Of a stretch of DNA of 64,000 nucleotides, positions 5,889 to 18,461 are shown piece after piece. The DNA is taken from the NCBI GenBank assembly GCA_022843945.1, contig JALHMR010000003.1, positions 62,001 to 126,000 on the forward strand. The letters run 5' to 3'. Position 1 is the first letter of the stretch, and every line of letters starts with the position of its first letter. A program made the position numbers and the translations under genes. The notes beneath the pieces are model-generated. The model ran no database searches, had not been told where the DNA came from, and worked only from the letters and a program-made list of their open reading frames with translations. The stretch comes from Rhodospirillaceae bacterium (lineage in GTDB: Bacteria > Pseudomonadota > Alphaproteobacteria > CACIAM-22H2).

Positions 5889-6935
5889 TCACTCCACCCG
5901 GACGCGCGGCGCCCCGGCGGCGACCTCGCCGATCACCTTCGAGTGGACGAAGCCCCGGTTCGTCAGCAGCTCCAGCACCGCCGGCACGGTCTTCTCGCCG
6001 CAGGCGATCAGCAGGCCGCCGCTGGTCTGCGGATCGCAGAGCAGGTTGCGCCGCCATTCGGGCAGACCGGCGGGGAGGTCGACCTCGTTTCCATAGCTCG
6101 CCCAGTTGCGCGTCGCGGCTCCGGTGCCGATCCCGCTTTCCGAGAGTTTCACCGAGGCCGGGATGAACGGCAGATCCGCCATGTCGATGCGCACGCCGAG
6201 AGAGGCGCCGCGGCACATCTCCAGCGTATGCCCTAGCAGCCCGAAGCCGGTCACGTCGGTGACCGCATGCACGCCCGGCAGCGGCGGCAGTTCGGCGCCG
6301 ACCGTGTTAAGTTGGGTCGTCTGGGCGATCATCTCGGCATAGGCGGCACTGTCGAGCAGCCCTTTCTTGAGGGCAGCGCTCAGGATACCGATGCCCAGGC
6401 GCTTGGCCAGGATCAGCCGGTCGCCGACCCGCGCCGTGCTGTTGCGCAGGACCCGGGCTGGGTCGACGATGCCGATGGCGGCAAGACCGTAGATCGGCTC
6501 GGGCGAGTCGATCGAATGGCCGCCGGCCACCGGAATGCCGGCCGCGGCGCAGACCGCCGCTCCGCCGCGCAGAATCTGCTGCACCTGCTCCACCGGCAGC
6601 TTGCCGACCGGCATGCCGACGATGGCCAGGGCCATGATCGGTGAGCCACCCATGGCGTAGATATCCGAGAGCGCATTGGTCGCGGCAATGCGCCCAAACT
6701 CGTAGGGATCGTCGACGATCGGCATGAAGAAATCGGTGGTGGCGACCACGGCCTGGCGGTCGTTGATCTTGTAGACGGCCGCGTCATCTGCCGTCTCCGT
6801 GCCGACCAGCAGATTGGGGAAGCTCGTCGCGGCTGGCATCTTGGCCAGGATCTGGCTGAGCACGGAGGGTGCCAGCTTGCAGCCGCAACCGCCGCCATGG
6901 GCCAGGTCTGTCAGTCGGATTGCACCGTCAGGCAT
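5889..6935 (-). CDS. selD: Selenide, water dikinase (selenophosphate synthetase)
   Basis: 348 aa, normal length. SelD makes selenophosphate from selenide and ATP, the selenium donor for Sec-tRNA synthesis by SelA. The glycine-rich N-terminal motif HGGGCGCK carries the catalytic pair Cys17/Lys20, the same numbering as in E. coli; the position is Cys here, not selenocysteine. The AIRS-type ATP-binding core follows, with [18 protein letters not shown] and [13 protein letters not shown], and the C-terminal domain has [10 protein letters not shown]. It is the last gene of the island, 9 bases after the GcvH-like gene, suggesting cotranscription with the sulfur-carrier-type genes and selB. Confidence 0.97.
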
Positions 6936-6944
6936 GGCTCTCTC

Positions 6945-7385
6945 CTACTCCGTGCGTTCCTTGTAGGCACCCGTGGCGAACCAGCCCTCGAAGGCCGGCG
7001 CGATACCGGCGCCGGTCACCAGCCCCTGCCGCCAGTCGTCGCTGGCGGGCTTCACGATAAGCATCCAGCCCTCGTCGAACGGATCGGTGTTGAGCAATCC
7101 CGGCCTGCCCACCAGGATCTCATTGGTGGCCACGACCGTCCCGGCGAAGGCTGAACGCGCCGCGCCGACCCACTTGCCGCCCTCGACCACCGCAAACGAC
7201 CGGTGCTTGTCGAACTCGCGCCCCACCCGCTTCGGTGTGAAGGCGAAGATGCCGCCCATGAAATTCGCCGACCAATGGGTAAATCCGGCGCGCACCGTTC
7301 CGTCCGCCAGCGGCTCGTACCAGACCTGGTTCTCCATGTCGTAGAAGAGCCGGTCGGGAAACTCGATGTTCTGCACCTGGACCAT
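6945..7385 (-). CDS. GcvH-like (lipoyl-type) carrier protein in the selenium island
   Basis: 146 aa, resembling glycine cleavage H protein. The segment FAVVEGGKWVG aligns with the E. coli lipoylation site (AVAESVKAAS), putting Lys71 at the lipoyl-lysine position. It continues like GcvH with AGTVVATNEIL, LLNTDPFDEGW and a C-terminal tail. No other glycine cleavage genes are near. It lies between the DsrE-family gene and selD, 9-10 bases from each. Stand-alone GcvH-like proteins are known as lipoate-binding sulfur carriers (LbpA) in sulfur oxidation; a selenium or sulfur relay role here is inference. Whether Lys71 is lipoylated is not shown by the sequence. Family confident, role unknown. Confidence 0.8.
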   Translation of the reverse strand: MVQVQNIEFPDRLFYDMENQVWYEPLADGTVRAGFTHWSANFMGGIFAFTPKRVGREFDKHRSFAVVEGGKWVGAARSAFAGTVVATNEILVGRPGLLNTDPFDEGWMLIVKPASDDWRQGLVTGAGIAPAFEGWFATGAYKERTE

Positions 7386-7394
7386 GGCGTGCCG

Positions 7395-7799
7395 TCAGTA
7401 CGTCAGCACGCGGCATGTGCCCTCCATGATGTCACCCATCATGGCGCCGGCCCCCATCAGGCCGCTGCATTCGGGAATCAGGTCGCTTTCCTTCATGTCG
7501 AGCAGCTCGAGATTCGCCGGGCAGGCCCAGAAGCGAGCCCCCTGGCTGTGCGCTTCCCTGATCCAGTCGTAGACGGTCTTGGAGTTGCCGATCTTGATCC
7601 GCAGCGTCTCGGCCACGCCCCTGCGCAGCAGTCGCCCCGCTGAGGCGGTGCAGACGATATCGACCTGGTAGTCCATCGCGGCAGCCACGGCCGCGTGATA
7701 GAAGGGCGCGCCGAGCTGCTCGACGTTGCGCGGATCGGTGTTCATCAACACGATCAGCAGCCGGCTTGCCGGACCTTGCGGTTGCGGCAAGCCCGTCAC
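7395..7799 (-). CDS. DsrE/DsrF-family sulfur-relay protein
   Basis: 134 aa from a GTG at 7799, reading (V)TGLPQPQGPASRLLIVLMN. This start leaves the frame just after the tRNA-Sec gene; a longer reading would run through the tRNA. The fold is DsrE-like: an N-terminal beta strand LLIVLMNTD and a mid-protein ARFWACPANLELL strand with Cys93 at the usual active-site position, plus Cys50, Cys111 and Cys129. DsrE proteins carry persulfide sulfur. The selenium-associated protein YedF has a DsrE-like domain, so a selenium or persulfide trafficking role fits this position between tRNA-Sec and selD. The specific role is inference. Confidence 0.8.
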   Translation of the reverse strand: MTGLPQPQGPASRLLIVLMNTDPRNVEQLGAPFYHAAVAAAMDYQVDIVCTASAGRLLRRGVAETLRIKIGNSKTVYDWIREAHSQGARFWACPANLELLDMKESDLIPECSGLMGAGAMMGDIMEGTCRVLTY

Positions 7800-7817: not shown

Positions 7818-7913
7818 TGGCGGAAGGGCGTGGGAGTCGAACCCACGAAGAACCGACTGGCGGCCCTTACTGGCTTTGAAGGCCAGCCGCCCCACCGGGG
7901 GCGATGCCCTTCC
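7818..7913 (-). tRNA. selC: tRNA-Sec (anticodon TCA)
   Basis: 96 bases on the minus strand. The 5' end GGAAGGGC pairs with GCCCTTCC to give the 8-bp acceptor stem typical of bacterial tRNA-Sec; the discriminator is G and CCA is encoded (7818-7820). The anticodon loop CTTCAAA carries TCA (7877-7879), with stem GGCTGGC/GCCAGT-like pairing, a long variable arm and a T-arm CGTGGGTTCGACTCCCACG. It starts 10 bases after the selB stop and ends about 19 bases before the DsrE start, so it is probably processed from the operon transcript. Confidence 0.97.
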
Positions 7914-7923
7914 GCGTTGTTGA

Positions 7924-9876
7924 TCATGCCGATACCCGTTCGGCCGGACGCACCGGGCCGAACGCCTCAAGCTTCTGCGGGTGTACGCGGCGCAGGTCGC
8001 CGCTTCGCAGCGTCACACCGGAGCGGTCGAAGAATTCCAGGATCAGAATTGCGACCTTACGTCCTGTGCCGATCTTGTCGCGGAACATCGCCGCCGTGAT
8101 CTCACTCTCCGCGCTCCCGGCCGCAATGTCAGCAACGATGCCGACCATTTGGGCCACCGTCTCGCGCAGGTAATAGTGGTCGTGCGCCACCAGCACGACC
8201 TTGCCCATGCGGGCCAGCCGGCGCATCAGGTTGCGCACGTCCTCTTCTTTCACGTTCATACTCTTGGAGAAATCGCGCACCCGCGGCGGATCATATTTCG
8301 AGGTCTTCATGACGGCCGCGATGCGGCCCCACAGCCGCTCGTCGGCTGGTGTCAGCGTGACCTTGTGCGTGGGGTGGCGCAGCCAGGGCCCGTCCGTAGC
8401 GATGGCCTTATCGTGCAGGAGCGACGCCGCCAGGATCTCGAACACCGGCAGCGGCAGCTTCGACTGGATCGCCGGCCGCAAGCGGCTGCGGTCCATGCCC
8501 GGCAGATCCGGCGACTTGCGGTGGAATTCCTCCAGCACCGCCAGCACGCGCTCGCGCAGCTCGATCCAGCGCTCCTGCGAGAAGCCGTAGAGATGATTGC
8601 CTTCGCGGCCGACCATCATCCGGACCTTCGGCCACAGGGCCGCCGCCTCTTCGTCGGTCAGGTTGCGCGCGATGGCGAACTGCTTGAGATCGACCCAATG
8701 CGGCGCCGTCTCGACGAGCGCCGCCAGCGCCTCCTCCGGCTTCGCCGGTATCAGGGCGCGGAGGATGGCCAGGCGCTCGGGTGTGCGCCGGTTACGGCTG
8801 GGCGCGAAAGGATCGAGAGCCTTGCCGCCGGCGATCGTCCGCTGCGCCGAATGGTCACGCAGGATGAAGCGGTCGCCGTGCAGCACACCGACCGGCCTGT
8901 CGAGCACGATCTGGGCAAGGGCCGACTTGCCGGGCTCCACCGTGTCACAATCGAGCAGGGCCACGTGGCCCATGCGATGCGCAGCGGCCAGATGGACATG
9001 CACTGGCGCCCAGTGGCGCAACGGGCGCTTCTCGGTGTCGAGTACATGCACGGAGACATCGAGACGATCGGTGGGCACATGCACGGCATGGTTCAGCACC
9101 CAATCGCCGCGCTCTATCTTGTCTTTCTCGAGATCGGTGCCGACCAGGTTCAGGGCGCAGCGCTGTCCCGCCTGACCCGAGGGGCTGTCCTGGTTCTGGG
9201 CGTGGATCCTACGGATACGCACGTCCATGCCCGACGGCGACAGGGTAAGCCGGTCGTCAATCTTCACGCGGCCCGAGTAGGCCGTACCGGTGACCACGAT
9301 GCCCGTGCCCGCCAGCAGAAAGGCGCGGTCGACGGCGAGCCGGAAATGGCCCTTCATCGGACGCTGAGCCAGCGCTTCGGCCGCCGCGTTGAGCTGGTCG
9401 GCAAGCCCTGCAACGCCCATGCCCGTTACGGCGGAGACCGGCACCACGTCGAAACCGCGCATGGATGTGGGTGCAAGCAGCGCCTTGATATCGGCGGTCA
9501 CCTCGGCCAGTCGTTCGGCGGAAACGAGGTCGGCCTTGGTCAGCGCCACGAGGCCGAAATCGAGTTCCAGCAGATCGAGGATCTGCACGTGCTCGCGCGT
9601 CTGCGGCATCACGCCGTCGTCGGCCGCCACCACCACCAGCACGAAATCGATGCCGATGGCCCCGGCCAGCATGTTGTGCACGAACTTCTCGTGGCCCGGC
9701 ACGTCGACAAAGCCAAGGATCTGGTCGGTGCCGGCCAGCGGCTTGTAGGCAAAGCCGAGATCGATGGTGATGCCGCGGCGCTTCTCCTCCGGCAGGCGGT
9801 CGGCGTCGACGCCGGTCAGAGCGCGGACCAGCGCCGTCTTGCCGTGGTCGATATGGCCGGCCGTCCCGACGATCAT
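7924..9876 (-). CDS. selB: Selenocysteine-specific translation elongation factor
   Basis: 650 aa, normal length. SelB brings Sec-tRNA to UGA codons marked by a SECIS hairpin. G-domain motifs are clear: [11 protein letters not shown] (G1), [10 protein letters not shown] (G2), [12 protein letters not shown] (G3) and TKADLV (G4). Domains 2-3 follow ([13 protein letters not shown]), then a long C-terminal region of winged helices (about residues 380-630) that bind the SECIS RNA. The start overlaps the stop of the Sel1-repeat gene by 4 bases (ATGA), and the stop lies 10 bases before tRNA-Sec. Its target here is fdnG. Confidence 0.97.
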
Positions 9877-10676
9877 GCCGGCGCCCTCGCCTGCTTCAAC
9901 GCGGCGCGGGCCAGGTTTTCCGCCTCGGCAATCTGGTCACGGGTCATCGTCGCCTGCACCCGCGGGATGAAGTTCATCGCGAGATCGCCGCCGGCATCCC
10001 GGCTGCGTAGCAGCCAGTAGAGCGCTGTGATCGCGTTGGCCTCGACGCCCTTACCCATGTGATAGGCAGCGCCCAGCATCGCCTGGGCTTCGAGCTCCCC
10101 CGTCTCGGCGGCCTTGTGCCACCAGTCGACCGCCGCGTGCGGGTCGGGATCGACGCCGAGCGCATCGTGATGAATGCGTCCCAGGCGCGTCTGGGCGGTC
10201 GCGATACCGGAAACGGCCGCCTTCTCCGCCCACAGCCGCGCCTCGACGTAGTTGATTTCGACGCCCACACCTTCCAGCAGCATGAAGCTCAGCATGTCCT
10301 GAGCCGTGGCATCTCCGGCCTCGGCGGCGCTGCGATACCAGCGCGCCGCCTCGACCTCGTCCTTGGGCACGCCGTTGCCCTCGTAGTAGAGGTAAGCGAG
10401 GTTGCGCTGCGCGAGGGCGTCACCCAATTCCGCGCCACGGCGGATCCACTTGGCACCGGCTTCAGGATTGCGCTCGACGCCCGATCCCTCCATGAGGAGA
10501 CCCCCTAAGTTATTGTTTGCACGTACATTTCCGGCCTGTGCCAGCTCGTGCCAGTCGCGTGCGGCGACGGCGAAGTCGCCGCGCTTGAAAGCCTCCAGCG
10601 CCGCCTCCATCCGTGAATCCTGCTCGGCCTCACTCGGCGCGCGACGAAACCATGAAGCAAGGCGAAGTGCGGACAT
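9873..10676 (-). CDS. Sel1-like repeat (TPR-related) protein
   Basis: 267 aa with about five Sel1-like repeats between residues 45 and 235, recognised by units such as [15 protein letters not shown] and [15 protein letters not shown]. These form an alpha-solenoid for protein-protein contacts. No signal peptide is obvious, so it is probably cytoplasmic. The gene is coupled on both sides: its ATG overlaps the selA stop (TGATG at 10676) and its stop overlaps selB (ATGA). Such tight embedding between selA and selB suggests a role linked to Sec synthesis or formate dehydrogenase assembly, but no function is known to me. Confidence 0.85.
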
Positions 10677-12112
10677 CAGAGAGCCAGCTCGGAAAGCTGC
10701 GCGACGAAACCGGCTTCGTCCTCGAGGCAGCGCAGATCGAAATGTAATGCGCCTTCGTGCACACGACCGATGACCGGCACCGGCAACGCACGGAATGCCG
10801 CCGCGAGCCGATCGATATCGGCACCGCTGGGGCGTTTCCCCTGCCCCTTGACCGGGCTAAGCACCAGGCTGGCACTGTCCAGCAACTCGACCGGCAGCGA
10901 GCCGCTGCCGATCTGGCTCTTGCACTCGCCTATCGACACCTCGGCGACGCCGGCGAGCCTGGTCGTCACGGTCGGCAGAAGCCGTTGCGCCAGGGCCCTG
11001 ATATCGTCCTTGCGCCGTGTCAGCAGACGAAGGGTCGGCAGCTTCTGCGGCAGCGTATCCGGATCGCGGTAGAGCCGCAGCACCGCTTCCAATGCCGCCA
11101 GGCGGACCTTGTCTAGCCTCAGCGCCCGCTTCAACGGATTCTTGTTGATCGGTTTGATGAGATCGTCGTGCCCGACGATGATCCCGCATTGCGGCCCACC
11201 GAGCAGCTTGTCGCCGCTGAAGCTTACGAGGTCGCCGCCGCTGTTGATCGCCTCCCTTGGCGTGGGCTCGTGCGGCAGGCCATAGCGCTCAAGATCGACC
11301 AGTGTGCCGGCACCCAGATCGATGACGAACGGAATCTTCCGCTTGTGGGCGATGTCCATCAGCGTCCGCTCGGGTACCGCGGCGGTAAAGCCCTGGATCG
11401 CATAATTGCTGGCGTGAACGCGCATGATCAGCGCCGTGCTCTCGCCAATGGCGGCCTCGTAGTCCTTAGGATGCGTGCGATTGGTGGTGCCGACTTCGAC
11501 CAGGCGGCAGTTGGCGCGCCGCATGATGTCGGGGATGCGGAACGCTCCGCCGATCTCGATCAGCTCGCCGCGGGAAACGATGACCTCCTTGCCTTCGGCG
11601 AAGGTATTCAGCAGCAGAAGGACTGCACCGGCATTGTTGTTGACCACGCAGGCCGCTTCGGCGCCGGTCAGCTCGCAGATCAGCTGTTCGACATGCGCGT
11701 CACGCTCGCCGCGCGACCCCTTCTCCACCTCGAATTCGAGGTTCGAGGGATACGCCATGACATCGAGAACCGCGTCGACGGCCTCCTGCGGCAGAACGGC
11801 GCGGCCCAGATTGGTGTGGAGCACCGTCCCGGTCAGGTTGAAGACGCGCCGTTGCGACGGTCGGGCCCGTGCCAAAACACGCTGCCGGCAGGCGCCGGCG
11901 ATGGTCTCGATGCCGGGGATGGCCGCGTTTTCATCGCGCAAGGCGTCGCGGGCCTCACCCAGGACGCGCCGCAACGCGGCTACCGTTTCCTGATGGCCGT
12001 ACGTTGCCACCAGCTCTGCGACAACGGGATGGGCCAGAGCCCGGTCGACCGAGGGAAGAGCGGCGGCCTTGGCCTTTTCCGGAACGGCAGTCACGGCCCT
12101 ATCCGGACGCAT
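10676..12112 (-). CDS. selA: L-seryl-tRNA(Sec) selenium transferase
   Basis: 478 aa, close to E. coli SelA. A PLP enzyme that converts Ser-tRNA-Sec to Sec-tRNA-Sec using selenophosphate. The PLP-binding region SFSGDKLLGGPQCG has Lys302 as Schiff-base lysine. Other family signatures are NLTGTVLHTNLGRA, EFEVEKGSRGER, VNNNAGAVLLLL and RVHASNYAIQGF. The stop overlaps the Sel1-repeat start; the start lies one base after the fdhE stop. The start MRPDRAVTAV is the first ATG. An internal methionine start is not attractive because the N-terminal helical domain would be lost. Confidence 0.97.
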   Translation of the reverse strand: MRPDRAVTAVPEKAKAAALPSVDRALAHPVVAELVATYGHQETVAALRRVLGEARDALRDENAAIPGIETIAGACRQRVLARARPSQRRVFNLTGTVLHTNLGRAVLPQEAVDAVLDVMAYPSNLEFEVEKGSRGERDAHVEQLICELTGAEAACVVNNNAGAVLLLLNTFAEGKEVIVSRGELIEIGGAFRIPDIMRRANCRLVEVGTTNRTHPKDYEAAIGESTALIMRVHASNYAIQGFTAAVPERTLMDIAHKRKIPFVIDLGAGTLVDLERYGLPHEPTPREAINSGGDLVSFSGDKLLGGPQCGIIVGHDDLIKPINKNPLKRALRLDKVRLAALEAVLRLYRDPDTLPQKLPTLRLLTRRKDDIRALAQRLLPTVTTRLAGVAEVSIGECKSQIGSGSLPVELLDSASLVLSPVKGQGKRPSGADIDRLAAAFRALPVPVIGRVHEGALHFDLRCLEDEAGFVAQLSELAL

Positions 12113-12113
12113 G

Positions 12114-13043
12114 TCAGGCGTCGCCGAAGGTCAGCAGTGGATTGGGGGCGAGACGCTGCCATTCTGCCTCGGAAACAAGGATATCCAGGCCGAGCGTGGC
12201 CAAGTCATCGATCACGGCTTCGGCATCAGGCTCCTTCTCGAGCGAGATGATCTTGAGGTAGGTCTTGCACTCGTCGCACGTCTCCGCCCGCACGGCGTCG
12301 GACTGTCCTTCGATCACCTGGTAGGTAATGCCCTTGGTCGACGCGCAGTTCGAGCATTTCACGCGGACGCAATGCCATTCGCTGCCACACAGGCCGCAGG
12401 ACAGGAAGCGGGTGTTCTGGAGATTGCCCATGGTGTGAAGCAGGCTCGCTACCGGCGGGCTCCCGCAGACCGGGCAGAGACTGGTCACCTCCTCCGGCCC
12501 GATATCCTGGGCATCGATCAGCGAGGCCATGCGCGTGGCATGCACCTGGAGGGCCGCGGCCACGTAGGGCGTCAGCGCCCGCTCCTCGGCGCTCAGATCG
12601 AAATCCAGCACACGCCGGGCAAGCTCCTGGCGCTCCGGAACGGCCATGCCGACCAGGCGCCGTCGGGCCGCCTCGGCGGCCTCCGGCTTCTCGACCGGCG
12701 CCATGCTCTCCAGAATGGCGTCGAGGGCGACCGTCCAGGTCGGATCGGACCACAGGCCGTCGGAAGCCAGAGCCGCCGCCCCGCGCTTGCGGCGCTCGAA
12801 TATCTCCTGCTGGCCGGGGAGCGTCCCGGCGGGAAGCTTCCCCAGCGCCGCGTGCTGGGCGCGGGCCAGGGCGGAGACGAACAACAAAAAGCCTTCCAGG
12901 GGCTTTTGCTGTGCCGCGAGCTGGGAGGCTCTGGTGGCACGCCGCTGGAAGGCGGAGGTAAGACTAGGCAAGCGAACGAACGGTGGTGTCGCTACATTGC
13001 CGATTTCCTCTTGCGGTACGATCCCACCTTTCGCTGCCGTCAT
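12114..13043 (-). CDS. fdhE: Formate dehydrogenase accessory protein
   Basis: 309 aa, the usual FdhE length. FdhE is a cytoplasmic rubredoxin-like protein needed for formate dehydrogenase maturation. Four CxxC motifs are visible in the C-terminal half: CPVCGS, CGLCGSEW, CSNC and CDECKTY, forming the two metal-binding knuckles. The N-terminal half is helical and rich in Ala, Arg and Glu. Its ATG overlaps the fdnI stop by 4 bases. It sits between the enzyme genes and selA, matching its role between synthesis and export of the selenoenzyme. Confidence 0.94.
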   Translation of the reverse strand: MTAAKGGIVPQEEIGNVATPPFVRLPSLTSAFQRRATRASQLAAQQKPLEGFLLFVSALARAQHAALGKLPAGTLPGQQEIFERRKRGAAALASDGLWSDPTWTVALDAILESMAPVEKPEAAEAARRRLVGMAVPERQELARRVLDFDLSAEERALTPYVAAALQVHATRMASLIDAQDIGPEEVTSLCPVCGSPPVASLLHTMGNLQNTRFLSCGLCGSEWHCVRVKCSNCASTKGITYQVIEGQSDAVRAETCDECKTYLKIISLEKEPDAEAVIDDLATLGLDILVSEAEWQRLAPNPLLTFGDA

Positions 13044-13678
13044 TTAGCTCCTTTGGACACCTCTTCGCGCAGCCACTTCCGGTGATGGCGCCAGGCCCAC
13101 CCGCCGGTAACGGAGCCGCGTGTCATGCCGCGAACGGTGCCCTTGACCCAGATGGCGGCGTAGATGTGCACGACGACGATCATGATGATGCCGGTCGCGG
13201 CGAGCGCATGGATGACGGCCGCCCAGCGCTTCTGATCGATCGTGAAATACTGGGCGAAGTACTGATCCCAGAGCACGATGCCGCTGGTGATCAGCGCGAT
13301 GATCGTCAGGACCATGCCCCAGAAGACGAGCTTCTGGCCGGCGTTATACTTGCCGACCTCCGGAAGCTTGTCTTCGCGCGCATTCACCACGTCGCCGACC
13401 TGCTTCATCCACTGCGTGTCTTCCTTCGTCCAGAAATTGAATTTGACGAAGCGGAAGAACAACCCGCCGAAGGACAGAACGACAGCGACCCCCATCCAGG
13501 GATGGAGGATCCGCGCCATCGCCCCGCCGCCGAACAGGTCGGTGAGGAAGAACAGAGAGGGATGGAAGAACGCCATGCCGCTCAAGGCGAGCGCGATGAG
13601 CAGCGCAGCGTTGATCCAGTGGTTGATCCGCGCACCCGTGGTGTAGCGGTCAAGGATGTTTTCCGGTTTCTCGCTCAC
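13040..13678 (-). CDS. fdnI: Formate dehydrogenase cytochrome b556 (gamma) subunit
   Basis: 212 aa, four transmembrane segments (about residues 22-40, 58-77, 118-137 and 155-175), as in FdnI/FdoI, which carry electrons from the beta subunit to the quinone pool. Candidate haem ligands are His20 (RINHWIN), His59 (ILHPW) and His residues of the AAVIHAL and VVHIYAA segments. The start codon overlaps the fdnH stop (ATGA) and the stop overlaps fdhE. The C-terminal tail is basic and cytoplasmic. fdoI is the alternative name; the N and O forms cannot be told apart here. Confidence 0.93.
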
Positions 13679-14568
13679 GACGCCTTCCTCCGCATCTCAC
13701 GAGCGGCGGCCTCCTCATCGTGCGCATCGACCCGGTTCGGACCCTTGGTCATGTAGTGGAAGACCCCGGCAAGAGCCGTCAGACCGATGCCGACCATGGC
13801 GATCGGCTTGAGCATGCCCTTCCACAGATCGACCAGCGGACTGATCGTCGGATCCTTCGCCAGGCCGGCGAAGATCTGCGGCCGGTCCGCGTGCTGCAGC
13901 ACGTACATCACATGCGTGCCGCCGACACCCGGCGGATCGTAGAGCCCGGCGTTCTTGTAGCCGCGCTCCTTGAGGTCGGTGATCCGCGTCTGGGCCTGGG
14001 CGATCATCGCGGCCTTGGTGCCAAAGGTGATCGCCTGGGTCGGGCAGGCCTTGGCGCAGGCCGGGCCCTGGCCGACATTCACCCGGTCGGAGCACAAGGT
14101 GCACTTGTACGCCTTGTGATCGGCCTTGGAGATGCGCGGGATGTTGAACGGGCACCCCTTCACGCAGTAACCGCAGCCGATGCAGTTCTCCTTGACGAAG
14201 TCGACGATGCCGTTGGTGTACTGCACGATGGCGCCGGGCGACGGGCAGGCCTTGAGGCAGCCCGGATCGGCGCAATGCATGCATCCGTCCTTGCGGATGA
14301 GCCATTCGAGGTTGCCGTTATCGGCGACAACCTCGCTGTAGCGCATCAGGGTCCAGCTGTTCTCGGTGAGGTCGTGCGGGTTGTCGTAGACACCCGTGTT
14401 GACCCCCACTTCCTCGCGCAGATCGTTCCATTCAAGACATGCCGCCTGGCAGGCCTTGCAGCCGATGCACTTGGAGATGTCGATGAGCTTAGCGACTTCC
14501 GTCGTCGGACCGCTCAGGCTTCCTGCAGGGGTGCTGGAAGCAGAGCGGCGCATGAGATCGAGAGCCAT
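13675..14568 (-). CDS. fdnH: Formate dehydrogenase iron-sulfur (beta) subunit
   Basis: 297 aa, as expected for FdnH/FdoH. Four [4Fe-4S] cluster motifs can be followed: [11 protein letters not shown] at about 35-45, [26 protein letters not shown] and [22 protein letters not shown] single C-terminal transmembrane helix (about 248-265, [19 protein letters not shown]) anchors it on the periplasmic side, as in the FDH-N structure. It lies 15 bases after fdnG and overlaps fdnI. No Tat signal of its own is seen, matching piggy-back export with the alpha subunit. Confidence 0.95.
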
Positions 14569-14583: not shown

Positions 14584-17500
14584 TTAGGAAACCACGTTGA
14601 TTTTTTCGACATCGACAAGGAACGCCTTGTACTCGGGCGTTTCAATGTTGGCGTCGCCGACATAGGGGGTCAGCATGTTGGCGCCATACCCCTTCTTTGT
14701 CGCTCCCGTGAATCCCCAGTGAATGGGAATGCCGACCTGGTGCACCACCTTTCCGTCGCACTTGAGCGTCATCATGCGCTTGGTGACCACCGCCTTGGCT
14801 TTGATCGAGCCGCGGTTGCTGCTCACCTTCATCCAGTCGCCGTTGCGGATGCCTTTCTCTTTCGCCAGGTCCTCGCCGAGCTCGACGAACAGCTCGGGCT
14901 GCAGCGAGGCGTTGACCTGGACGTGCTTCGACCAGAAGTGGAAGTGCTCGGTGAGGCGGTAGGTCGTGGCGACATAAGGGAAGTCCTTGGCTGTGCCGAA
15001 GACCTCCATGTCGCCCCGGAACACGCGCGCCACCGGGTTGGACACCACTTTCTGATGCATCGGGTTGCCGACCGGTGTCTCGAACGGCTCGTAGTGCTCG
15101 GGGAACGGCCCGTCACGCATCATGCCGCGCGTGAACAGCCGTGCCGTGCCTTCCGGGTTCATGATGAACGGCCCGACACCTGCTTCCGGCTTGTTGGCGG
15201 GGCCGTAGTCGGGCACGTCGAGGCCCGTCCAGGTGGTGCCGTTCCACTCGATCAGCTTCTTGCTCGGCCCCCAGGGCTTGCCGTTGAGATCGGCCGAGGC
15301 GCGGTTGTAGAGGATCCGGCGATTGGCCGGCCACGACCAGGCCCAGCGGGGCGCAAGTCCCGCGTTCTCGGGGTCGGCCGTGTCGCGACGCGCCATCTGG
15401 TTGCCGGCAGGAGTCCACGAACCCGAATAGATCCAGCAGCCACAGGCCGTCTTGCCGTCGTCGCGCAGTAGCGCGAAGCCGGGCATCTGCTGTCCCGCGG
15501 TAAGGAGCTTCTTCGTCGCATCGTTGGGGTCTGGCACGTCCTCCAGGACGTAGCCGTTCACTTCCTTGGCGATCTCCTCTGGATGCGGCTTCTTCGGGTC
15601 CTTGTACGGCCATACCAGGTTGAGGATCGGATCGGGGAAGACCCCGCCTTCTTTCTGGTAGAGTGCCTTCAGCCGCAGGTGGAGCTCGGCCATGATGTCG
15701 ATGTCGCCCTTCGTCTCCCACGGAGCGTCGGCACCAGCCCAGTGCCACTGCAGCCAGCGGCCCGAGTTGGTGAGCGATCCTTCGTCCTCGGCGAAGCACG
15801 TCGTCGGCAGCTCGAACACTTCGGTCTGGATCGAGGCCGAATTGACGTCGTTGTGCTCGCCGTGATTTTCCCAGAACCGCGCCGTTTCGGTCTGCAGCGG
15901 GTCGATGACCACCAGGTATTTCAGCTTCGCCAACGCGCCGGCGATCTTCTTCCGGTTCGGGAACGACATCAGCGGGTTGAAGCCTTGGCAGAAATACCCG
16001 TTGATCCGGCCCTGGTGCATCAGCTCGAAGGCGCGCAGCACGTCATAGGTAACGTCGAGCTTGGGCAACCAGTCGTAGCAGAAGTCGTTGTCCTTCGTCG
16101 CCGCCGCGCCCCACATGGACTTTGTGAAGCTGACGAAGAACTTGCCGTAGTTCTGCCAGAAGCTGGTCTGGCCTGGCCGCATCGGCTTGAACTGCCGCGT
16201 CTTCATGTACTCGGCGTAGTTCGGCTCGCGCTCGTTGGCCAGGGTCAGGTAGCCGGGGATGAGGTTGCTCATCAGCCCGATATCCGTGAGGCCCTGGATG
16301 TTCGAGTGGCCGCGAAGCGCGTTCATGCCGCCGCCGCGCATACCGATATTGCCCAGCAGGAGCTGAATCACCGCCATGGCGCGGATGTTCTGCGACCCCT
16401 TGCTGTGCTGGGTCCAGCCAAGCGCGTACATGCTGGTCATCGCCTTGTCGGGCGCCGACGTCGTCGCGATCACCTCGCAGATCTGCAGGAACTTGTCCTT
16501 GGGTGAGCCGCAGACCCGCTCCACCATCTCCGGTGTATAGCGCTCGTAGTGCTTCTTCATCAGCTGAAAGACGCTGCGGGGATGCTGCATCGACTCGTCG
16601 AGCTTGACGAAGCCGTCATCTCCCATCTCGTAGTCCCAGCTGCTGCGGTTATAGTCGCGCTGCTCGGCGTTGTAGCCGGTGAACAGCCCGTCCTCGAACC
16701 CGTAGCCGTCCTTCACGATGTACGAGGCGTTGGTGAACGCCTTGACGTACTCGTGCTGCAGCTTGTTGTTGTCCAGCAGGTACTTGATGACGCCGCCGAG
16801 GAAGGCGATGTCGGTGCCGGCCCGGATCGGGCAGAAGATGTCCGCCAGCGCCGCCGAGCGCGTGAAGCGCGGATCGACGACGATCAGCTTCGCCTTGTTA
16901 TGCGCCTTGGCTTCCGTAACCCACTTGAACCCGCAGGGATGTGCTTCGGCGGCGTTGCCGCCCATGATCGTGATGACATCCGCATTCTTGATGTCCATCC
17001 ACAGGTTCGTCATCGCGCCGCGACCGAAAGTTGGGGCCAGACTGGCCACCGTCGGTCCGTGTCAAACTCTTGCTTGATTATCGAAGACGACCATCCCCGA
17101 ACTGCGCACCATCTTGTAGGTGACGAACGCAGTCTCATTGCTCGTGGCCGAGGCGGCGAGGAAGCCGGTGGTCGTCCAGCGGTTGACCGTGGTGCCCGCC
17201 TGGTTCTTCTCGATGAAGTTCTTGTCGCGGTCTTCCTTCATCAGCTTGGTGATGCGGTCGAGCGCGAAGTCCCAGGTGACGCGGCGGAAAGCCTTCTCGC
17301 CGGGGCCGCGGTACTGCGGGTACTGCGTGCGCGTCTTGCTGTTCACGAAGTCGAGGAGAGCCGAGCCCTTCGGGCACAGCGTGCCGCGGTTCACCGGATG
17401 GTCCGCGTCGCCCTCGATGTGGAAGATCTCGGACTTGCCGCTCGCCGGGTTGGCGCGGCTGTACATGATGATGCCGCAACTCACCGAGCAGTACGGGCAG

Positions 17501-17655
17501 GTGTTCCGCGTTTCCTTGGCCTGCGCCAGCTTGAACGGCCGGACCGCCGCGACGGCGGCGTCGGACGAGAAGCCGAGAGCCGACAGGGTCGAGGCACCGA
17601 CGGCTGTGCCGGTGTAGCGGAAGAACTGCCTCCGCGTGACGTTCATGACACCCAT
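14584..17655 (-). CDS. fdnG: Selenocysteine-containing formate dehydrogenase alpha subunit
   Basis: 1023 aa when the in-frame TGA at 17062-17064 is read as selenocysteine (Sec198); E. coli FdnG has Sec196. The flanking sequence DNQARV-Sec-HGPTVASLAP matches the FdnG active site. The N-terminus has a Tat signal (TRRQFFRYTG) and a [4Fe-4S] motif CPYCSVSC with a later CPKGSALL. The rest is a molybdopterin guanine dinucleotide enzyme with VVDPRFTRSA and the C-terminal MopB domain. It oxidises formate in the periplasm and is first in the operon. A start at 17646 (MNVTRRQ) is also possible. Gene prediction that ignores Sec would split it in two. Confidence 0.97.
17024..17064 (-). promoter_or_regulatory. 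Bacterial SECIS element of fdnG
   Basis: Directly after the UGA the mRNA can form a hairpin whose top is GG-U-GGCC-AGUCU-GGCC-CC (17033-17050): a short stem with a bulged U and a small loop containing GUC, as in the E. coli fdhF and fdnG SECIS. Below it CCGAC can pair with a GGTCGC-like segment. The spacing from the UGA (about 13 bases) fits SelB-dependent recoding. Confidence 0.88.
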
Positions 17656-18032: not shown

Positions 18033-18461
18033 ATGGCGGCGCGATCCCGGCAAGGAGCCCAAGTCACCGATTCGCCCCCCGGAAGCACCGACCTGATCGC
18101 CTGGATGCGGACGCAGTTTCGCGAGGCCGGGGCCTACACCGCACTCATCATTCTCGTGCGCATCGAGGGGGCCAGCGTCACCCCCCAGGCCTCGAGCTAT
18201 CTCCATGTCATCGGCGACGAGATCGATTGGCCGGAACTCCGGCAGATGCTCAGCCGCTCCGGTGTGCCGTGGAACGGCGTGGCCCTTTTCCCGGCCGCCC
18301 GGGACGGCGGCCCCCTTCCCGACCATGTCGCGCGCCTCCAGCTCAACGAGCTGCAGGCGCGCGTGAATCTGGACCGGCTGACGATCGCCGAGGAAGGCCA
18401 GTTCTTCGATGATCAGGGGCGCCGTCTGAAGCTCGAGGTCGTCGGCTCGGGCCTGCACTGA
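18033..18461 (+). CDS. Conserved-looking hypothetical protein
   Basis: 142 aa with a strong ribosome site (AAGGAGACGAGCTA before ATG), so expression is likely. The protein is soluble, with a mixed alpha/beta pattern (ALIILVRIEGASVTP, GVPWNGVALFPAAR) and no cysteines, signal peptide or membrane segment. I recognise no domain. It is divergent from fdnG across a 377-base region and convergent with the next gene, whose stop is 19 bases away. No function is assigned. Confidence 0.75.
   Translation: MAARSRQGAQVTDSPPGSTDLIAWMRTQFREAGAYTALIILVRIEGASVTPQASSYLHVIGDEIDWPELRQMLSRSGVPWNGVALFPAARDGGPLPDHVARLQLNELQARVNLDRLTIAEEGQFFDDQGRRLKLEVVGSGLH

Follow-up and report, generated by a model that had tools for sequence, protein, structure and literature searches.

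A DsrE3C-LbpA-type carrier pair in a selenocysteine/formate dehydrogenase locus, hinting at a sulfur or selenium hand-over route

What role might two proteins of sulfur-carrier families play when their genes lie between a selenocysteine tRNA gene and selD? In the window (the whole 64,000-nucleotide stretch of DNA that was analyzed), a minus-strand block runs in the order fdhA(UGA)-fdhB-fdhC-fdhE-selA-Sel1-selB-tRNA-Sec-DsrE-GcvH-like-selD. The formate dehydrogenase alpha subunit gene fdhA (14584..17655) carries an in-frame UGA for Sec198, at which we identified a SECIS_3 element (17009..17067; RF01989, 82 bits). The beta subunit gene (13675..14568; TIGR01582, 464 bits) and the gamma subunit gene (13040..13678; assigned by position and conservation in relatives) are followed by fdhE, encoding a formate dehydrogenase accessory protein (12114..13043), selA (10676..12112; 478 aa), a gene for a 267-aa Sel1-repeat protein (9873..10676), selB (7924..9876; 650 aa) and tRNA-Sec with anticodon TCA (7818..7913; identified by ARAGORN and by Rfam RF01852, 79 bits). 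Beyond these lie the DsrE gene (7395..7799; 134 aa, GTG start; Pfam DrsE_2 E 3e-8, DsrE 1e-4), the GcvH-like gene (6945..7385; 146 aa; Pfam GCV_H E 1e-21) and selD, encoding selenide water dikinase (5889..6935; 348 aa; NCBIfam E 1e-155), all on the minus strand.

The first-pass annotation had reported the one-strand order from selB to selD, the gene coordinates and the placement of Lys71 in the GcvH-like protein, and all of these were confirmed; the block is longer than it described, starting at the Sec-encoding fdhA at 17655. Gaps are 10 nt between selB and tRNA-Sec, 18 nt between tRNA-Sec and DsrE, and 9 nt on either side of the GcvH-like gene, so that the pair is flanked by gaps of 9-18 nt. 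In a pattern scan, fdhA was preceded by a promoter-like site and selD directly followed by a terminator-like stem; because such sites were about equally frequent in shuffled sequence, transcription of the block from fdhA to selD as one unit is likely, but no more. A Sel1-repeat gene is likewise placed in most relatives, and nearly every alphaproteobacterial cluster seen has one between selA and selB. Divergent from fdhA, on the plus strand, is a 142-aa member of an unnamed family, hyp2 (18033..18461), whose relatives follow tRNA-Sec elsewhere. From about 30900 to 64000, the window holds a mostly minus-strand run that resembles prophage genes, judged by eye from ORF starts and order.

The protein encoded at 6945..7385 had been called GcvH-like, with Lys71 at the lipoyl position. 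The lipoyl fold and the lysine both held; its type, however, is LbpA rather than GcvH. Lys71 (codon 7173-7175) aligns with the lipoyl lysine of GcvH and is identical in 43/43 LbpA-type rows. The predicted structure (pLDDT 94) places it in a beta-hairpin, at the turn that joins strands 63-69 and 72-77, and the best PDB match of this model is the lipoylated E. coli H-protein. The window protein shares its fold and lipoyl lysine with GcvH of the glycine cleavage system, but it scored 52.6 bits against a cut-off of 115.85 bits (TIGR00527), and in a 53-row tree it grouped with LbpA of sHdr clusters, apart from a clade of ten GcvH rows (support 100/99). A GcvH function was rejected on these grounds. 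The same genome has a second match, more like GcvH, on a different contig (C35).

For the neighboring protein, structure prediction gave a DsrE fold (pLDDT 90) with Cys93 (codon 7521-7523) directly after strand 89-92, and the model matched the DsrE/DsrF-like proteins 3mc3 and 2qs7 and DsrEFH (2hy5) in the PDB. Cys93 is identical in 41/41 DsrE rows. Based on the DsrE fold, the conserved cysteine after the core strand and the adjoining LbpA gene, we predict a DsrE3C-type sulfur carrier that partners LbpA; one related locus (L064) has an LbpA gene, and DsrE was not found there. The first-pass annotation had pointed to the selenium link of YedF (TIGR03527, a SirA-DsrE protein), whose DsrE-type domain is likewise linked to selD (PMC5322559). 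YedF proved not to be the nearest relative: the window DsrE lacks a TusA/SirA domain and the CGxC motif and does not match the TIGR03527 family model, and YedF membership was rejected.

Family matches, folds and the 53-row tree thus assign the pair to the DsrE3C-LbpA type described for sHdr sulfur oxidation (PMC6067878, PMC11582611). The proteins of sHdr clusters belong to the same families (LbpA 39-48% and DsrE 51-56% identical to the window proteins), have the same carrier residues and, in part of the loci, also have a lipoate-ligase-like gene nearby. In contrast to them, the window pair lies in a Sec/FDH-N locus of a genome lacking sHdr genes (none in the window, and no sHdrB1-type gene genome-wide), and the main Sec-linked LbpA clade (15 rows, support 100/99) is missing the N-terminal GC and C-terminal GFxGC cysteines of sHdr LbpA. 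The sHdrB1-type gene was likewise absent genome-wide from 18 of the 19 other genomes with Sec/FDH-linked pairs. Sec-linked rows are scattered in the free LbpA tree; a single Sec-linked clade was not rejected by AU tests for LbpA (p 0.46 for alphaproteobacterial rows, 0.36 for all rows) or for DsrE (p 0.18), and we therefore do not claim multiple independent origins.

An alignment of four Sec-linked LbpA, used to scan 84,980 species genomes, yielded at least 14 loci, a lower bound given the short patterns. Nearly all of these loci have the order fdhABC-fdhE-selA-Sel1-selB-tRNA-Sec-(hyp1-hyp2)-DsrE-LbpA. Carriers include Rhodoplanes elegans DSM 11907, R. serenus DSM 18633, R. tepidamans DSM 9987, Bradyrhizobium sp. 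Ec3.3 and several Hyphomicrobiales and Xanthobacteraceae. In total, we compared 23 Sec/FDH loci, including the window, from Alphaproteobacteria and two lineages outside that class; tRNA-Sec is visible in 18 and FDH genes in 20, several loci being cut by contig ends. Because Sec/FDH genes adjoin the pair in 22 further loci, the arrangement in the window is not a matter of chance.

Arrangements vary among the 23 loci, DsrE-LbpA after tRNA-Sec being one of them. In a locus from another class (L120; fdhA-B-C-fdhE-selA-selB-tRNA-Sec-LbpA-DsrE), the pair follows tRNA-Sec in the order LbpA-DsrE, 31 nt after the tRNA. Three loci (L117-L119) come from one genus outside the Alphaproteobacteria and presumably resemble the Pseudomonas aeruginosa group in gene order; in the two that are uncut, DsrE-LbpA and tRNA-Sec are 3.6-4.1 kb apart. 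The pair is divergent from a ligase-like gene and fdhA in L065-L067, and the arrangement is convergent in L039 and L064; in L039 the pair adjoins fdhE-fdhA, and selB is on another contig. Across these loci, the cluster has no constant donor or acceptor gene. The same Sec/FDH cluster also exists without the pair, several such genomes having selD at the tRNA-Sec end, and the pair is therefore an optional insert. Many Sec/FDH clusters have hyp1 (about 150 aa; L029:7482-7940) and hyp2 (about 130 aa; L029:7927-8319) after tRNA-Sec. These genes, which have no Pfam or NCBIfam match and possibly encode FDH-N accessory proteins, also occur in or beside clusters lacking the pair.

Apart from three exceptions, relatives of the pair outside Sec/FDH loci sit in sHdr clusters. 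Of 385 sampled alphaproteobacterial genomes, 15 had an LbpA match: nine in sHdr clusters, five in Sec-FDH loci (the window and L064-L067) and one in genome G003 (L024). In G003, TusA and a YeeE/TsuA-like sulfur transporter are close to the pair, which lacks sHdr and Sec neighbors; the genome is SelB- and FdhE-positive, with its Sec/FDH locus on another contig, and has no sHdrB1-type gene. Strong matches in 398 genomes of the phylum were mostly in sHdr clusters (L122-L124, L126, L127), the others being L120, L117-L119, an orphan LbpA (L121) and L125. The L125 pair, from a genome listed as 100% complete (G752), is accompanied by LipS1, LipS2, lipoate ligase and DsrE2, and belongs either to a different sulfur enzyme or to an sHdr type that the query missed. 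No sHdrB1-type gene was detected in G003 or G752, and the sHdr label that the rows of L024 and L125 bear in the LbpA and DsrE trees does not apply to them. The orphan LbpA gene (L121:8869-9315) lies away from sHdr and Sec loci, as do the Acidithiobacillus LbpA-type genes that were the only finds of a plasmid search; the match there also touches an annotated hemerythrin-domain gene. SelB was present in 6/9 genomes with sHdr-linked LbpA and in 55/385 overall, with kin genomes counted singly.

If the pair serves selenium metabolism, it would not be expected to occur as often in genomes without Sec genes. Most non-sHdr pairs do lie in Sec/FDH loci, but homologous pairs do occur in SelB-negative genomes, mostly in sHdr clusters and, in the case of L125, with neither SelB nor an sHdr gene detected. 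In the sample of 385 genomes, FdhE was found in 16, and the non-sHdr pair was present in 6/16 FdhE-positive and 0/369 FdhE-negative genomes. All six genomes with this pair are FdhE-positive and five are SelB-positive; the sixth (G370) has a UGA-split fdhA, and its Sec/FDH contig breaks off close to selA. Among SelB-positive Alphaproteobacteria, the non-sHdr pair occurs in 5/14 genomes with FdhE and 0/41 without (p 6e-4 counting genomes); only two families (f1, f57) carry it in this test, so the effective number is small. A single sampled genome (G276) has FDH-N without Sec, and it is without the pair; with such genomes nearly absent, the sample cannot separate a Sec link from an FDH-N link. 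By gene content, the pair follows FDH-N no less closely than Sec.

We favor, at a probability of roughly 40%, the reading that the pair is a chalcogen (S/Se) carrier module, related to DsrE3C-LbpA and housed within a Sec/FDH-N island, that would feed selenium to SelD. At the level of sequence, this draws on family membership, the invariant Cys93 and Lys71, the Sec/FDH-N linkage and the lack of sHdr genes. Cys93 of DsrE would take up sulfane-type selenium (perselenide), the donor being of the desulfurase or rhodanese type; LbpA, through the dihydrolipoyl arm on its Lys71, would accept this selenium or reduce it off DsrE and deliver it, protein-bound, to SelD. Synthesis of Sec-FDH could then proceed when selenium is low, with no toxic selenide set free. 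The Km of SelD for selenide is in the toxic range, and carrier proteins have therefore been sought, with rhodanese under discussion (PMC8538045); in vitro, dihydrolipoate serves as an acceptor of sulfane sulfur (PMC6067878). We slightly prefer SelD as the target because selenium carriers are presumably needed and because selD is contiguous with the pair: DsrE, LbpA and selD follow one another in the same direction in the window, L021/L022 and L026, and in L032 selD adjoins the pair convergently.

The first-pass annotation had proposed a relay feeding SelD. Its carrier part is borne out by the protein families, the invariant residues and the placement in Sec/FDH loci; SelD, however, adjoins the pair in only 5/23 loci (several being cut by contig ends), from which "feeding SelD" does not follow. 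Most SelB-positive genomes do without the pair, and in G003 the pair is separate from the Sec/FDH locus and accompanied by TusA and a sulfur-type transporter; both count against the selenium reading. Nothing in the sequence separates selenium from sulfur, and certainty is lowest for the final step, in which selenium would go to SelD and not sulfur to the molybdenum cofactor of FDH.

The more specific form of the selenium reading, a lipoate-dependent relay in which DsrE would carry perselenide and lipoyl-LbpA would hand selenide to SelD, we consider tentative, at about one chance in three. It depends on lipoylation of Lys71, which is predicted. A lipoate-protein-ligase-like gene (Pfam LplA-B_cat where scanned) adjoins the pair in seven loci (L021, L022, L032, L039, L065-L067), which speaks for lipoylation. 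Two other marks of LbpA, shdr gene neighbors and a dedicated lipoate-protein ligase, were sought in the window's genome and not found. No LplA-type ligase was matched in this genome, which has LipB (its sole PF21948 match resembles LipB), or in many other pair-bearing genomes, where LipB/LipA would therefore have to act. This gene content counts against the selenium reading, as does the report that sHdr LbpA is left unmodified by the canonical machineries of E. coli and of B. subtilis (PMC10332631).

A close rival, somewhat less probable than the selenium reading, is that the cargo of the pair is persulfide sulfur, supplied or protected on its way, with FdhD, to the bis-MGD molybdenum cofactor of FDH-N. 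Since FDH-N is the selenoprotein, linkage to sel genes would be explained. The restriction of the non-sHdr pair to FdhE-positive genomes makes an FDH-specific role at least as good among SelB-positive Alphaproteobacteria, and the pairs that adjoin fdhA (L065-L067) or fdhE-fdhA away from selB (L039) agree with it, as do the sulfur handled by the homologous system and the sulfur-related neighbors in G003. FDH maturation requires sulfur via FdhD, yet IscS-FdhD is sufficient in E. coli (PMC6239281); fdhD is present in the window's genome, but on another contig. Moreover, the contiguity with selD described above would go unexplained.

It is improbable that the pair acts in clearance, taking away sulfane sulfur or excess selenide around SelD/FDH without delivering it, whether keeping sulfur out of the selenium route or protecting Mo-Se centers. 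Such a role would agree with carrier chemistry, which can run either way, with the optional status of the pair in SelB-positive genomes and with the lack of a fixed donor or acceptor in the cluster; a general role of this kind would nevertheless not be expected to hold the pair so tightly in FDH-N/Sec loci. We give still less credence to a redox role in which lipoyl-LbpA and dihydrolipoamide dehydrogenase feed electrons to selenium assimilation or FDH assembly, with DsrE as a non-carrying partner. Lipoyl domains do shuttle electrons, and in L021/L022 and L026 SelD is fused to an NADH-dehydrogenase-like domain directly after LbpA (L026:6114-8351), but the remaining loci have plain SelD or none adjacent, and the invariant DsrE cysteine is left unexplained. 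In L021, a cysteine-desulfurase-like gene is convergent to the SelD fusion, the coordinates there being 10401-12620 and 12615-13820. Hitch-hiking of leftover sulfur-oxidation genes with Sec/FDH islands, where they would have no role, fits the patchy distribution of a family otherwise known from sHdr clusters but is very improbable given carrier residues that are invariant across long branches, linkage kept through several arrangements and a ligase-like gene beside the pair in part of the loci.

The selenium reading shares with rhodanese- and thioredoxin-type delivery the idea of protein-bound selenium for SelD (PMC8538045); the proteins differ, and the physiological role of those candidates is itself unsettled. 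A keyword search of sHdr/LbpA and selenium comparative-genomics papers, in a literature that mostly excluded subscription journals, returned no mention of the pair in Sec/FDH loci, in keeping with the earlier statement that the combination had not been described. We rate the finding as known carriers in a new setting, without their known enzyme, which hints at a dedicated sulfur or selenium hand-over route for making selenium-containing formate dehydrogenase. The delivery of selenide to SelD without harm to the cell has long been an open question, and the pair offers a compact candidate module that, being present in cultured bacteria (three Rhodoplanes strains), is directly testable. If the selenium relay is true, selenocysteine synthesis would be added to the roles of lipoate; should the molybdenum cofactor be the target, lipoate would still have a role outside 2-oxoacid and glycine metabolism and sulfur oxidation.
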